Program-made: the position numbers and the translations under genes
NCBI GenBank assembly: GCA_945903705.1
Contig: CAMDOZ010000006.1
Span: 1 to 52,322 of the forward strand
From: Fidelibacterota bacterium
GTDB lineage: Bacteria > Pseudomonadota > Alphaproteobacteria > Rhodospirillales > Rhodospirillaceae
Direction: 5' to 3'
DNA length: 52,322 bases
Part shown: piece by piece, positions 24,242 through 34,967 of the stretch
Position numbering within the stretch: the stretch's first letter is position 1
How the letters are laid out: each line of letters starts with the position of its first letter
Notes under the pieces: model-generated
Database searches by the model: none
What the model was told of the DNA's origin: nothing
Seen by the model: only the letters and a program-made list of their open reading frames with translations

Positions 24242-24854
24242 GGCGGACCTCGCGAAGGGCCAATATGGTTCCTGTGGGATCGGTCAGGCTTTTCTGACGA
24301 TCAAGAACCATTGTCCATTGCTTGTGTGCATCCGTCAATTCGGCCTCTACCGTTTGACCCTTTAAAAAGAGGCTGACCGTCTCGGGGCCGCGGAAGGGCT
24401 CGGTCCAGTCCAGGAGCTTGTCGAGGGGGGCGAGGGCCCGGGCCGTAATGACCCCCGCTGCGAAAGGCGCCAGCTTTTCGATCCGTTCGGGGTGGAGGCT
24501 GACCTGAACACCGGCCGCGCGCGCGGCCTCCCGCATGAACGCCACCTTCCGCTGGTCCGATTCCACTAGGTGGACGTCGCGGGCACCCATGATCGCCAAA
24601 ACCAGGCCCGGAAACCCCGCTCCCGAACCCACATCCAGTAAATTGGGGGTATTCTGGGGAATAAACCGAAAAAGTTGCGCTGAATCAGCGAAATGGCGAT
24701 CCCATAAATTGGGGATGGAATCGGGGCTAACCAGGTTGATCTTGAGGTTCCACTTGACCAGGAGGTCGGCATAGGACGTGAGCCGGTCCAATGTTTCACG
24801 TGAAACACCGAAGGCGGTCTGGAAGGCCTCCGGCCCGGAAAAAGACTGTTTCAC
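24195..24854 (-). CDS. rsmG: 16S rRNA (guanine527-N7)-methyltransferase RsmG (GidB)
   Basis: A 219-residue Rossmann methyltransferase. NLLDVGSGAGFPGL is the SAM-binding loop. VHLVESDQRKVAFMREAAR and ARALAPLDKLL are also visible. It methylates G527 of 16S rRNA, and its loss gives low-level streptomycin resistance in other bacteria. It starts at GTG 24854, which lies inside a parS site. Residues GVSRETL (about 16-22) are encoded by a second parS. This embedding of parS in the rsmG N-terminus is known in several bacteria. The gene lies 9 nt downstream of the mnmG stop. Confidence 0.96.
   Translation of the reverse strand: MKQSFSGPEAFQTAFGVSRETLDRLTSYADLLVKWNLKINLVSPDSIPNLWDRHFADSAQLFRFIPQNTPNLLDVGSGAGFPGLVLAIMGARDVHLVESDQRKVAFMREAARAAGVQVSLHPERIEKLAPFAAGVITARALAPLDKLLDWTEPFRGPETVSLFLKGQTVEAELTDAHKQWTMVLDRQKSLTDPTGTILALREVRRVRDEPVRDPSNQRK
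24792..24807. promoter_or_regulatory. parS: parS centromere site 1
   Basis: TGTTTCACGTGAAACA, a perfect 16-bp palindrome identical to the bacterial parS consensus. It lies within rsmG, where it encodes part of GVSRETL. ParB binds it and loads onto DNA as a clamp. Confidence 0.95.
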
Positions 24855-24862
24855 GTGAAACA
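24847..24862. promoter_or_regulatory. parS: parS centromere site 2
   Basis: A second perfect TGTTTCACGTGAAACA, extended to an 18-bp palindrome by flanking C and G. It fills the mnmG-rsmG junction, and its GTG serves as the rsmG start codon. It is 55 bp from site 1, centre to centre. Confidence 0.95.
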
Positions 24863-24863
24863 G

Positions 24864-26759
24864 TTAGCCGGCCGCGGCGACCTCGGCGTCTCGATCCCGC
24901 CGGACATGGCGGAGGAGAGCCGTGAGGGCCGCCGGCGTGACACCGGGGATTCGGGCTGCGGCCCCAAGGGTGGCCGGACGAGCGGCCTTCAGCTTCTGAC
25001 GGGCCTCATTGGACAGGCCGCCGATGCTGTCCACGTCCAGATCCGCAGGCAAATGCAAAGCTTCGTCCCGGCGGAAGGCCCGGATGTCGGCGGTCTGCCG
25101 GTCCATATAGCCGGCATAGCGAGCTTCGATCTCGACTTGCTCGACCACGGCCGGCGCCGCTCCCGGAAAGTCCGGGAACAGCACCCGCAGCCGGGCATAG
25201 TTCATCTCCGGCATTGCCAATAGACTCAAGCCATTACGCCGCACGCCATCCTGATTGACCGTCAATCCGCGCTTCTGGAGCTCGGCCGGCGACTGCGAAA
25301 GAGCGAGGAGCTGGTTGCGGAGGGCTTCAAGGGCGGCCTTCTTCTGGCCAAAGCGCTTGGCCCGCGTCGATCCGACACAGCCGGCCGCCACACCTTTCTC
25401 CGTCAGGCGAAGGTCCGCGTTATCGGCCCGGAGTTTGAGCCGGTACTCGGCGCGGGAGGTGAACATCCGATAGGGCTCAGTCGTGCCGAGGGTGGTCAGA
25501 TCGTCAACCATCACCCCGAGGTAACCCTCTGCCCGGTCAAAGGTAATCGGGCTGCTGCCGGCCACCTTGCGGGCGGCATTGAGGCCGGCAATCAGGCCCT
25601 GGGCGGCCGCTTCCTCGTATCCCGTCGTGCCGTTGATTTGGCCGGCGAAGTAGAGGCCATTGACCTTCCGGGTTTCCAGGGTCGGGTGCAGCTCGCGGGG
25701 GTCCACGTAGTCGTATTCGATGGCATAGCCCGCCTGCAGCATGACGGCATGCTCGAGGCCGGCAATGGTCTTGAGGAGCGCCAGCTGGACGTCCTCGGGC
25801 AGGGAGGTGGAGATCCCGTTCGGATAGACGGTATGGTCGTCAAGCCCTTCAGGCTCCAAAAAAATCTGGTGCCGCTCGCGGTCCGAAAACCGGACCACCT
25901 TGTCTTCGATGGACGGGCAATAGCGGGGGCCGGCGCTCTGGATCTGGCCATTGTACATGGGCGCCCTGCCCTTATTAGCCAGGATCAGAGCGTGTCCCGC
26001 CGGGGTCGTGTAGGTGACGCCGCAATGGACTTGAGGGGTCGTGATCCGGTCGGTTAGGAACGAGAACGGCTCTGGTGGATCATCTCCCGGCTGGAGCTCG
26101 AGACCTTTCCAGTCGATGGTCCGGCCGTCGAGGCGCGGCGGCGTCCCGGTCTTGAGCCGGCCGACACCAAAGGCGAGCCGCTTCAGGGTCTCGGAAAGCC
26201 CGAGCGCAGGAGCTTCACCGATGCGCCCGGCGGGAATCCGGGATTCGCCCCGATGAATCAAGCCGTTGAGGAACGTGCCTGTGGTCAGAACGACGGCGCC
26301 GGCGCGGATTTCCGTCCCGTCGCCGGCCGCCACGCCGGAAATGCGGTAAGTCTCTGAATCTACTAGTAAATCTTCGATACCGCCGGCCCGAATCTCGAGA
26401 TTCGGCTGGTCCGCCAGCAGGGCTTGAACCGCATTCCTATAGAGCTTGCGATCCGCCTGGGCGCGGGGTCCCCGAACCGCGGGGCCCTTGGATTGATTCA
26501 GCATCCGGAACTGGATGCCGCCCAAGTCGGTCGCCCGTCCCATAATGCCGTCGAGGGCGTCGATCTCGCGGACGAGATGACCCTTGGCCAATCCGCCAAT
26601 GGCCGGATTGCAGGACATCTGGCCTATCGTCTCGATCTTGTGGGTAACCAGCAGCGTCCTCGCGCCGACCCGCGCCGCCGCGGCCGCGGCTTCACAGCCG
26701 GCATGCCCGCCGCCAACGACGATCACATCATATGAGGTGGCGGCCCGAGTCGGGGGCAT
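24864..26759 (-). CDS. mnmG: tRNA uridine 5-carboxymethylaminomethyl modification enzyme MnmG (GidA)
   Basis: A 631-residue FAD enzyme. The dinucleotide-binding motif V-V-G-G-G-H-A-G lies near residues 14-21. The family signature [17 protein letters not shown] (with C in SCNPAIGG) and TGTFLNG follow. The C-terminal helical MnmE-binding domain is also present. With MnmE it builds cmnm5U34 in several tRNAs. Length is typical. It is the second gene in the leftward mnmE-mnmG-rsmG-parA-parB series. Its ATG is 1 bp from a palindromic repeat that fills the start of the mnmE-mnmG gap. Confidence 0.97.
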
Positions 26760-32232: not shown

Positions 32233-33495
32233 CTATTTGTTCATCCGGTCGAAGAAGTCGCCGTTGTTCTTCGAATCGCGGAGCTTGTCGAGCAGGAACT
32301 CCATACCGTCCTGAACGCCCATCGGATCGAGGATGCGGCGCAGCACCCACATCTTCGACAGGTCGCTCTGCTTGACCAGGAGCTCTTCCTTGCGGGTGCC
32401 CGACTTGGTGATGTCGATGGACGGGAACACGCGCTTGTCGGAGAGCTTGCGGTCGAGGACGATTTCCGAATTACCGGTGCCCTTAAACTCTTCGAAGATC
32501 ACTTCGTCCATGCGGCTGCCGGTGTCGATCAGCGCGGTCGCGATGATGGTCAGCGAGCCGCCTTCTTCGATATTACGCGCGGCGCCAAAGAAACGCTTCG
32601 GGCGCTGCAGCGCGTTGGCGTCCACGCCGCCGGTCAGCACCTTGCCCGACGAGGGCACGACGGTGTTATAGGCGCGGGCGAGACGGGTGATGGAATCCAA
32701 GAGGATCACCACGTCACGCTTGTGTTCGACCAGGCGTTTCGCCTTTTCGATGACCATTTCGGCCACCTGGACGTGGCGCGAGGCCGGCTCGTCGAAGGTT
32801 GAGCTGACAACCTCGCCCTTCACCGTCCGGTCCATATCGGTGACTTCTTCCGGCCGCTCATCGATCAGAAGTACGATCAGATAGACTTCCGGATGGTTGG
32901 CGGCGATCGCATTGGCGATGCTCTGCAGCATGATGGTCTTGCCGGTCCGGGGCTGCGCCGTGATCAGCGCGCGCTGTCCCTTGCCGAGCGGTGAAACCAG
33001 CTCGATGACGCGTCCGGTCAAGTCCTTGTTCTTGGTATCTTTCTGCTCGACCTCCATCGTCAACTTTTCGTCGGGATAGAGCGGCGTCAGGTTGTCGAAG
33101 TTGATGCGGTGGCGAACCGCGTCTGGATCTTCGAAATTGACGCGGTCGACCTTGAGCAGAGCGAAATAGCGTTCCCCATCCTTCGGCGCGCGGATCTGGC
33201 CCTCGACCGTATCCCCGGTCCGGAGGCCGAAACGCCGCACTTGGCTGGGCGAGACATAAATATCGTCGGGGCCCGGGAGGTAGTTTGCCTCCGGCGAGCG
33301 GAGGAACCCGAAGCCGTCCTGCAGGATTTCCAGCACACCGTCGCCGTCAATGGACGTGTCCTTTTCCGCGAGGCTTTTCAGGATCGCAAACATGAGATCC
33401 TGGCGCCGCAGATTTGAGGCGTTTTCGATGCCGTATTCCTCCGCGAAGGTAAGAAGTTCGGCGGGGGATTTGCGCTTCAGTTCCTGAAGATGCAT
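32233..33495 (-). CDS. rho: Transcription termination factor Rho
   Basis: A 420-residue hexameric RNA helicase. The Rho-N domain starts [15 protein letters not shown] and is followed by the primary RNA-binding (cold-shock-like) domain with [19 protein letters not shown]. The ATPase domain has [21 protein letters not shown] and the Q/R-loop regions. ATG 33495 gives the length of E. coli Rho; the frame extends 30 codons upstream without family support. It borders the putative replication origin and reads away from it. Confidence 0.97.
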
Positions 33496-33737
33496 GGGTG
33501 CTGAAATAATGTGAGGGGTGAAGGAATAGCTGGGGAGCCGAGGGGAGAGGGAGGTCTTGAAGGAGCCGGTCACGACTGGCGGCAAGTCTTCAGTCGATGG
33601 ACGATCTTGCGACGGGGGCGAATTGGAAAATCGAGAGGGGCGAACACCCCGTTCTGATAGTCAGAAGCGATACCTGAGGGGCCCGGGTGAGTCAATATTT
33701 GAATTCAAGCACGGACTTACATGGAAGGAAAACTATC

Positions 33738-33772
33738 CAACCTTAATCCTAAGAGGACTTAGGTGAAGGTTG
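33738..33772. repeat. Stepped inverted repeat within the origin region
   Basis: CAACCTT-AAT-CCTAAG-AGGA-CTTAGG-TG-AAGGTTG: two matched arm pairs (7 and 6 bp) around a 4-nt loop. No T-run follows on either strand, so it is not a standard terminator. It may form a cruciform in the origin or a hairpin in the rho leader RNA. Confidence 0.6.
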
Positions 33773-33952
33773 TTAGTTGGGCCTGTGAGTCACGAGAATC
33801 ATAACTCCTCCTTTTCCATCCCGTGAAGTGCACACACCTATCGCGTCTGAAAGCTCGGGTGTGGGAATCATTTCGGAAAATGCGGTGCTGTGCCGCGTGC
33901 GGAGTGAAATGTCATAATCGTGGAAAACGGGTATTGTGACGATTGCCGGGTT

Positions 33953-33980
33953 TCATCCACCTGATTCACACTGACTCACA
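33953..33980 (+). promoter_or_regulatory. Tandem DnaA-box-like array
   Basis: Three same-orientation 9-mers lie nearly end to end: TCATCCACC (33953), TGATTCACA (33962) and TGACTCACA (33972). The second fits the general DnaA-box form TTWTNCACA except for G at position 2, as in Caulobacter G-boxes (TGATCCACA). The last two each contain a GANTC methylation site. The 9-10 bp spacing would place DnaA protomers on one helix face. Confidence 0.6.
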
Positions 33981-34136
33981 TGATGGGGGCCGCTGTTCGC
34001 AAAGTTGCTGGTCGATTCAGGCACTGCGTGCACCCTTTGACGGGAGAGCGGTGATAACCGTACTTATCCCCGGGAAAAGATTTTTATCCCGCTCGCCTGT
34101 GAGTCGTGATTTTCGCCTCTTCGGAGCTTCTTTTCG

Positions 34137-34967
34137 GTGACCGACCGCTCTCCCTATAACCTCCACCTCGTCTCCGATTCGTCCGGCGAAACGGTCACCA
34201 ACATTGCTCGAGCCTGCTTAGTGCAATACGAGAATGTCCAGGTCACTGAGCACTTCTGGTGGCTGGTACGTACACCCGGCCAGATGAACCGGGTCATCGA
34301 GGGAATTCGCAGCGCGCCAGGCCTTGTGATCTTTACCCTCCTGGACGGGAAAATCCGTGTCCTTCTCGAGCAAGCCTGCCGTGAGATGAAAGTCTCCTAT
34401 GTCTCGGCCCTCGATCCGGTGATGGGCGCCCTCTCACAATTCTTCGAACGCCGGGCCGGCACCGAGATCGGTCGTCAGCATGCTCTCGATGACGAATATT
34501 TCCACCGGATCGACGCCATGCACTTCGCGGTTGCGCATGACGACGGCCAGTCCATGTTGGGCATGCTGGAAGCCGACGTCATCTTGATCGGAGTCTCGCG
34601 TACATCAAAAACGCCGACGTGCATGTACCTCGCCAACCGCGGACTCAAAGCCGGAAATATTCCGCTGGTCCCGAATGTGGCGTTGGCGCCGGACGTCATC
34701 GCGGCCAAGAAGCCGCTGATCGTGGGACTCACGCGCGAACCAAAGAGTCTCTCCGACATCCGCCAGAGCCGGCTGCGAATCATGAACGAAGATCGCAACG
34801 AGGGGTACGCCGACCTCGAGACCGTGCGCGAGGAAATTGCCGAATCCCGCCGCCTATTCGCAAAACACGGGTGGCCGGTGATCGATGTCACCCGGCGCTC
34901 CATCGAAGAAACCGCGGCGACCATTATTCAGCTCTATACCCAACGTCAGTCGGCGGCGTCATCATGA
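34137..34967 (+). CDS. ppsR: DUF299 bifunctional kinase/phosphorylase regulating PPDK or PEP synthase
   Basis: A 276-residue protein starting at GTG 34137. It has NLHLVSDSSGETVTNIARA and the P-loop-like GVSRTSKTPTCMYLA. GLTREPKSLSDIRQSRL and DVTRRSIEETAATI follow. Family members phosphorylate and dephosphorylate pyruvate phosphate dikinase or PEP synthase using ADP and phosphate. It is the first gene rightward of the putative origin and heads a tight operon (overlaps maf by 4 nt). Which of the two enzymes is the target cannot be told. Confidence 0.93.
   Translation: MTDRSPYNLHLVSDSSGETVTNIARACLVQYENVQVTEHFWWLVRTPGQMNRVIEGIRSAPGLVIFTLLDGKIRVLLEQACREMKVSYVSALDPVMGALSQFFERRAGTEIGRQHALDDEYFHRIDAMHFAVAHDDGQSMLGMLEADVILIGVSRTSKTPTCMYLANRGLKAGNIPLVPNVALAPDVIAAKKPLIVGLTREPKSLSDIRQSRLRIMNEDRNEGYADLETVREEIAESRRLFAKHGWPVIDVTRRSIEETAATIIQLYTQRQSAASS

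Follow-up and report, generated by a model that had tools for sequence, protein, structure and literature searches.

The intergenic gap between rho and the gene for a kinase-pyrophosphorylase (PPRP) carries eight copies of GANTC, the target of the methylase CcrM, and several of them are embedded in 9-mers that resemble DnaA boxes. The locus raises the question of whether a bacterial origin of replication may hold methylation sites inside its own initiator boxes, where replication itself would change the mark. This was the original prediction, made from the letters of the window (the whole stretch of 52,322 nucleotides that was analysed). Here we examine the locus, the conservation of its sites in the genus and in the wider class, and the different readings that these observations allow.

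A predicted chromosomal origin between rho and PPRP

The gap is 641 bp long (33496–34136) and is flanked by rho (32233–33495, minus strand; Pfam Rho_N, Rho_RNA_bind and ATP-synt_ab) and by PPRP (34137–34967, plus strand; Pfam Kinase-PPPase PF03618, E 3.8e-91). On the downstream side Pfam identifies maf, aroE and a dnaQ-like exonuclease, and on the upstream side mnmE and, farther out, mnmG, rsmG, parA and parB. Two perfect parS sequences are found by sequence match at 24792–24807 and 24847–24862 (both plus strand), about 9 kb from the gap. With the rho/hemE side to one side, PPRP-maf-aroE to the other and parABS nearby, the gap has the location of the chromosomal origin in alphaproteobacteria such as Caulobacter, and Cori of C. 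crescentus lies at the same syntenic position. The order rho-gap-PPRP is common to the genus and its nearest genera, with gaps of 549–684 bp; the gap measures 411 bp in one further member of the family, and in other alphaproteobacteria rho, where seen, is about 2 kb away. Judged from synteny and parS, the gap is very probably the chromosomal replication origin of this bacterium, in agreement with the alphaproteobacterial origin context assumed at the outset.

Seven sequences in the gap match the DnaA consensus with at most two mismatches, against 3.71 ± 1.73 in shuffled sequences, and one matches with a single mismatch (0.31 in shuffles). The canonical box TTATCCACA has 26 exact copies in the genome and none on the contig with the gap. 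A scan for rival origins was confined to the surroundings of these 26 canonical boxes; none of the 26 had more than three boxes (at most one mismatch) within 250 bp, none had a triple TAG repeat, and other DnaA-box clusters around them were rejected as origin. An origin at dnaA was also rejected, with no box of at most one mismatch in the 2,982 bp around that gene. GC skew over the 52 kb is uninformative on the origin, and a structured RNA in the gap was discarded as a candidate (no Rfam match up to E 1). Around dnaA and the 26 canonical boxes we saw no better origin candidate than the rho-PPRP gap. Elsewhere in non-coding DNA of the genome, canonical TTATCCACA boxes occur in pairs, one with starts 23 bp apart (L297, at C3:50961) and another 64 bp apart and inverted (L315, at C104:4909), and these are possible DnaA-regulated or titration sites.

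The original prediction depended on the presence of ccrM, and the gene was found downstream of rnhB. Its product of 366 aa scores 552 bits to the CcrM of 6pbd and 629 bits with the NCBIfam CcrM model; although the latter value lies under the equivalog cut-off of 830, we count the methylase of a CcrM-methylated origin as present. The genome also has gcrA and dnaA, and domain IV of its DnaA is similar to 1j1v, a solved domain of the E. coli type (E 9.8e-29). The SeqA model PF03925, searched for as the mark of SeqA-type sequestration, has no match in the genome (93% complete), the E. coli control being positive. Similarly, the CtrA-like sequence TTAA-N7-TTAA, expected of a CtrA-repressed origin, is absent from the gap at up to two mismatches.

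GANTC sites of the gap and their conservation in the genus

All eight GANTC sites were confirmed at 33689, 33787, 33796, 33865, 33963, 33973, 34014 and 34101. About 1.6 had been expected by chance, which is too few: when the dinucleotides of the 641-bp gap are shuffled 200 times, the expectation is 3.65 (p 0.02). When the window's 166 sites were placed uniformly, eight sites within 417 bp arose somewhere in 4.7% of 3000 placements. The whole window is poor in GANTC (166 vs 267 expected), owing to its coding part (135 vs 240); its other gaps are neutral (20 vs 18.3), the last two figures resting on crude gene calls. An excess over chance thus appears in this gap and not in the other intergenic regions of the window. 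The eight-site count by itself is a modest excess and no more than suggestive, and it was rejected as proof, since clusters of like or higher density are present elsewhere in the genome. Seven GANTC start within about 240 bp between the end of rnhB and ccrM (L294 990–1231), denser than in the origin gap; the first overlaps the rnhB end and the group spans 990–1235, a position at which CcrM could act back on the promoter of its own gene. Eight further sites lie within 200 bp on either side of a TGAATCACA on another contig (C220, L291 300–708), mostly upstream of a short frame that starts MIARFCAAHLGLARDEKGATAIEYG (translated by eye) and looks like a Flp-type pilin. Despite the coding-wide depletion, seven sites also fall in 266 bp of mnmG coding sequence (26234–26499).

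Five of the eight sites lie within one 9-mer or its near variants, as originally noticed. The exact 9-mer TGANTCACA occurs three times, at 33784–33792 (minus strand), 33962–33970 and 33972–33980, and the one-base variants are GGTGAGTCA at 33686–33694 and TGTGAGTCG at 34098–34106. The genome of 3.41 Mb has 30 copies of the exact 9-mer, three of them in the gap, and 10 of the reversed pattern. The remaining 27 copies are spread over 26 stretches, 21 apparently coding and five apparently non-coding, so the 9-mer is not a common promoter motif, and a concern that it might be frequent at unrelated promoters is thereby answered.

The first GANTC (33689) is explained by a probable rho promoter, TTGACT-N17-TATCGC (33667–33695, minus strand), because it belongs to the -35 box; elsewhere in the genus, in 14 of the 18 genomes, this region reads TTGACTT and has no GANTC. 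The promoter was recognised by a pattern match and the genus columns, and the promoter consensus scan, which demands a final T in the -10 hexamer, cannot list it. The most A+T-rich part of the gap (33686–33780; 50-mers of 60–64% A+T) is a putative DNA unwinding element, and many relatives carry a AAGAATCTTA-like sequence in this region. It is joined at 33760–33783 (plus strand) by DnaA-trio-like repeats with a G+C-rich spacer. The adjacent site A, or box1, is TGACTCACA at 33784–33792 (minus strand), a putative unwinding-proximal DnaA box with the CcrM site GAGTC inside (33787–33791). The box2 position that follows (33793–33801, minus strand) reads CGAGAATCA in the window, holds GANTC 33796, and is NGGGGATTA-like (W-box-like) in many relatives. 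Farther on, TGATTCCCA at 33862–33870 (minus strand) has two mismatches to TTATNCACA and holds GANTC 33865. Site B is TGATTCACA at 33962–33970 (plus strand), which comes closer to the DnaA consensus than any other sequence in the gap (one mismatch) and contains GATTC at 33963; immediately 5' of it stands TCATCCACC (33953–33961, plus strand; two mismatches to TTATNCACA), and a second TGACTCACA at 33972–33980 (plus strand) holds GANTC 33973. The remaining elements, all on the plus strand, are GANTC 34014–34018, a weak DnaA/W-box-like TTATCCCCG at 34064–34072 that is rather well conserved among relatives, and TGAGTCG at 34100–34106, 30 bp before PPRP and found only in the window within the genus. 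The last one fits YGAKTCG, named as the extended GcrA motif (PMC7987155). Measured against the Caulobacter G-box TGATCCACA, site B (TGATTCACA) is one position off and site A (TGACTCACA) two, so that both appear G-box-like only. The 13-mer of site A, CCTGTGAGTCACG, is also present elsewhere in the genome, in DNA that looks non-coding (L289 499–511).

Conservation was followed in 18 genomes of the genus, namely the window and 17 others; one further congener had no PPRP match. GANTC 33787 and 33963 are each kept in 16 of the 18. The others are found in six (34014), four (33689), three (33865, and 33796, the latter confined to the window and its two nearest relatives) or in the window alone (33973 and 34101). 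The eight-site cluster was rejected as a meaningful unit, as six of its sites are kept in one to six of 18 genomes: one belongs to the probable rho promoter and two are private to the window. The conservation expected of the prediction is high for two sites and low for the other six. A third conserved GANTC lies 31–33 bp before site A in the putative unwinding region of 13 of the 18 genomes, and is missing from the window and its two closest relatives. Together the 18 gaps contain 87 GANTC, compared with 54.4 ± 6.4 in shuffles, and seven control pentamers are without enrichment. Sites A and B and the third site account for about 45 of the 87 (16+16+13), so the excess rests on these positions.

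In all but one of the 18 genomes, site A differs from TTATNCACA at two to three positions; in the genus it is held as TGTGAGTC, more than GANTC alone would require, with the off-consensus bases being the fixed ones. Setting aside the two nearest congeners, the 9-mer of site B differs from the DnaA consensus at two to five positions in the other 15. In ten congeners that have GANTC at site B it is three to four mismatches away, and may thus be something other than a DnaA box in these genomes. That GANTC is kept while the 9-mer drifts favours a reader other than DnaA at site B. The proposal that the 9-mers are DnaA boxes divides: the copy at 33784 does hold a DnaA-box position, as discussed below, and the copy at 33962 may not correspond to such a box in the ten congeners.

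The box1 module in alphaproteobacteria

In relatives, site A is preceded by an A+T-rich stretch, TAG-type trinucleotide repeats and GGNCC, and followed by a second box of GGGGATTA type. This 42-bp module was turned into an HMM in which the six variable columns of box1 are masked. The model was applied to stretches upstream of PPRP from 116 of the 191 PPRP-positive genomes of the class (mostly one per genus, ccrM-minus genomes preferred) and from 67 of the family's 68 PPRP-positive genomes, 183 in total. The PPRP start was recognised in 117 of the 183 fetched stretches, and the orientation of the others was taken from the assigned strand. The module was found in 123 genomes at E<=20, a permissive threshold at which some of the weakest matches are probably wrong, and 60 had no match. 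The DnaA-trios beside the box are degenerate in the window and clearer, as TAG repeats, in relatives; a strict regular expression for trios matched nothing in the window and few sequences elsewhere, the pattern being too strict.

Eight of the 123 genomes have the canonical TGTGGATAA as box1, and in two of three Zavarzinia loci box1 is TGTGGATCA, which lacks GANTC and equals the Caulobacter G-box on the other strand. Both forms identify box1 as the unwinding-proximal DnaA-box position, and by this alignment the window's TGTGAGTCA is its local form. At E<=20, box1 has a GANTC in the same register in 38/123 genomes, 17/82 genera and 11/54 families, and the feature recurs outside the family of the window. 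The figures are 25/84, 9/52 and 6/35 at E<=1, and at E<=0.1, where the spread is narrow, 20/61, 4/31 and 2/18. Denitrobaculum tricleocarpae (L033) has the box1 GGTGAATCA with GANTC, on a weak HMM match (E 6). Six loci of Caulobacteraceae were included. Three of them (L041–L043) have TGTGAAAAC or TGTGAAAAG as box1, two (L047, L078) have other candidates without GANTC, and one (L048) has none; a GANTC in the unwinding-proximal box is thus absent from all five Caulobacteraceae loci with a candidate box, C. crescentus itself not being among them.

Taking one genome per genus, box1 has GANTC in 16 of 82, whereas permuting the columns gives 4.8 (never more than 11 in 5000 permutations), kinship being ignored. 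Among genera whose box1 has TGTG and T7, A5 is found in 10 of 10 with C8 and in 4 of 22 without it (p 1.6e-5, kinship again ignored). On a PPRP tree of 60 loci, a quick tree with 13 of 57 inner branches well supported, the box1 state changes at least nine times. Independent pairs on this tree are too few: six were supported, with 3.1 in the expected and 0.2 in the opposite direction (median p 0.25). Pairing GA vs TC instead gave seven pairs, 2.4 vs 1.1, with median p 1.

The enrichment is not confined to box1. In 300 nt around the module, 82 genera together have 193 GANTC vs 109.9 ± 9.9, and seven control pentamers are flat (largest z 1.5); in the putative unwinding region there are 29 vs 12.9 expected. 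A GANTC in a AAGAATCTTA-like element of the unwinding region is widespread upstream of PPRP (e.g., L102, L110, L112–L117), reminiscent of the GATC in the 13-mers of E. coli. The contrast by ccrM status comprised 16 ccrM-minus genomes, with nine genomes of doubtful status left out, and is underpowered: 33 GANTC vs 31 in ccrM-minus genera (ratio 1.06) and 335 vs 241 in ccrM-plus genera (1.39), p 0.20. Box1 GANTC is seen in one of eight ccrM-minus and 14 of 73 ccrM-plus genera. Some ccrM-minus calls may be assembly losses, because two such genomes (G134 and G246) each have a ccrM-positive congener and both congeners of a third (G163) carry ccrM.

Possible roles of a methylation site in box1

Methylation sites at origins are known from several systems. 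In E. coli, SeqA blocks the DnaA sites R5, I2, I3, tau1 and tau2, which overlap GATC, and does not alter the occupation of the high-affinity boxes R1, R2 and R4 (PMC4285127); GATC is also found in the 13-mers of the DUE (PMC4451416). The present locus is similar in that methyl sites are enriched in the origin and overlap weak DnaA sites, but differs in using GANTC and CcrM instead of GATC and Dam, in the absence of a detected SeqA, and in placing the site at the unwinding-proximal box position. The claim that such an overlap had not been described therefore needs restricting. It does not hold for methyl sites overlapping the weak DnaA sites of E. coli, and for an unwinding-proximal DnaA box with GANTC we found no description in the literature searched, subscription papers aside. 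In V. cholerae oriII, GATC lies inside the 11- and 12-mers of RctB, and full methylation is required for efficient binding (PMC2865523). There too the methyl site is within initiator boxes, but the initiator is RctB and not DnaA, and the methylation effect was measured, whereas our case is built on sequence. The basal unwinding system consists of trio repeats, a short spacer and one or two adjoining DnaA boxes (PMC8287927); the module shares the order and orientation of these elements, except that box1 is replaced by a weak GANTC-bearing box and the trios are degenerate in the window.

Within the class, Cori of C. crescentus has G-boxes with a weakening T-to-G change, as well as W-boxes (PMC4468827 and PMC4285127). 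The gap resembles it in the T-to-G weakened box and in TCCCCA-like second boxes, but has no CtrA-like TTAA-N7-TTAA, and the Caulobacteraceae box1 candidates are without GANTC. PMC3973325 reports several GANTC in the C. crescentus origin and extra chromosomes when CcrM is over-expressed. In A. tumefaciens, depletion or over-expression of CcrM had no significant effect on ori1 focus counts (PMC11514494). The repABC origins such as ori2 of A. tumefaciens are dense in CcrM sites (PMC11514494 and PMC6090056), and RepC binding in vitro is reported as methylation-independent (PMC6090056). Density of CcrM sites is thus common to ori2 and our putative oriC, but ori2 is a RepC-dependent secondary origin.

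The locus, its anatomy, the presence of ccrM and the conservation are established in this analysis. We give a probability of about 45% to the reading that box1 serves both as a weak, G-box-like binding site for DnaA and as a CcrM site, and that the mark tunes DnaA occupancy and helps prevent re-initiation. DnaA would bind 33784–33792 beside the A+T-rich, DnaA-trio-like region and load from there onto the unwinding strand. In the genus, box1 would be a weak G-box-like TGTGAGTC(A/C) and simultaneously the CcrM target GAGTC. Passage of the fork would leave it hemimethylated until the return of CcrM, which, given a timing like that in Caulobacter, would come late in the cycle, and so the key box of the origin would bear a once-per-cycle mark. 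The methyl groups would sit in the major groove of box1 itself and could tune DnaA occupancy of this low-affinity box, directly or via a reader protein, which would help to stop re-initiation. We infer DnaA binding, methylation of the site, the timing of CcrM and the effect on initiation. A box1 GANTC is shared by most of the close relatives and occurs in some alphaproteobacteria beyond them, and replication itself would change its mark. The extra chromosomes of C. crescentus over-expressing CcrM speak for this reading. Against it stand the small phylogeny-corrected pairing, the non-significant ccrM contrast, the narrow spread at strict HMM cut-offs, the normal DNA content of C. crescentus without ccrM, the A. 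tumefaciens ori1 counts, the mismatches of site A, degenerate trios in the window, and a site B that conserves GANTC but not the box. A bolder form of it, which we find rather unlikely, is a SeqA-free switch: several alphaproteobacterial lineages would have rebuilt the unwinding-starting DnaA box as a CcrM target, DnaA itself would read full versus hemimethylation of this key box, and CcrM would license the origin once per cycle.

The main rival is a reader other than DnaA at site B. More generally, the origin GANTC could be read by a SeqA-like binder of hemimethylated GANTC, or CcrM could occlude the box, the overlap with box1 being steric; this is unlikely, though the readiest of the alternatives. 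The enrichment covers the unwinding region and other parts of the origin besides box1, and the GATTC of site B is kept even in genomes whose 9-mer departs widely from the DnaA consensus, both as such a factor would predict. With no SeqA found, it would have to be another protein, the literature searched names no protein that reads hemimethylated GANTC at an origin fired by DnaA, and site A is fixed as TGTGAGTC, beyond a bare GANTC. That the methyl mark has no function at all is, in our judgement, improbable. The boxes would then be weak G-box-type boxes (TGATNCACA) in which a T at the free fifth position makes an accidental CcrM site, and kinship would explain the recurrence. Indeed TGATTCACA and the G-box TGATCCACA (PMC4285127) differ at the free position only, the Zavarzinia TGTGGATCA does without GANTC in two of three loci, the tree-corrected tests are not significant, and ccrM-less C. 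crescentus has normal DNA content (PMC3973325). An accident, however, sits poorly with the strong C8-A5 association across genera, with a GANTC excess over the whole origin while control pentamers stay flat, and with bases held fixed in the genus that are the off-consensus ones. A role in transcription, through CcrM/GcrA control of the rho and PPRP promoters, seems quite improbable: it could draw on 33689 inside the probable rho -35 element, on YGAKTCG at 34100–34106 near PPRP, on the presence of gcrA and on the seven GANTC upstream of ccrM, but sites A and B do not fit YGAKTCG, the promoter-like site near A is a minus-strand 9-of-12 match, and the two promoter-fitting sites are kept in only four and one of 18 genomes.

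Returning to box1 as a DnaA box that is also a CcrM site, its meaning lies in the unsettled question of whether CcrM gates DnaA-dependent initiation. A model of the Caulobacter cycle assumes such gating (PMC2217572), yet C. crescentus without ccrM has the DNA content of the wild type (PMC3973325). As the five Caulobacteraceae loci with a candidate box1 lack GANTC there, that result may not carry over to lineages with GANTC in box1, and the survey pinpoints which box, and what sort of lineage, would allow a test of gating by CcrM.
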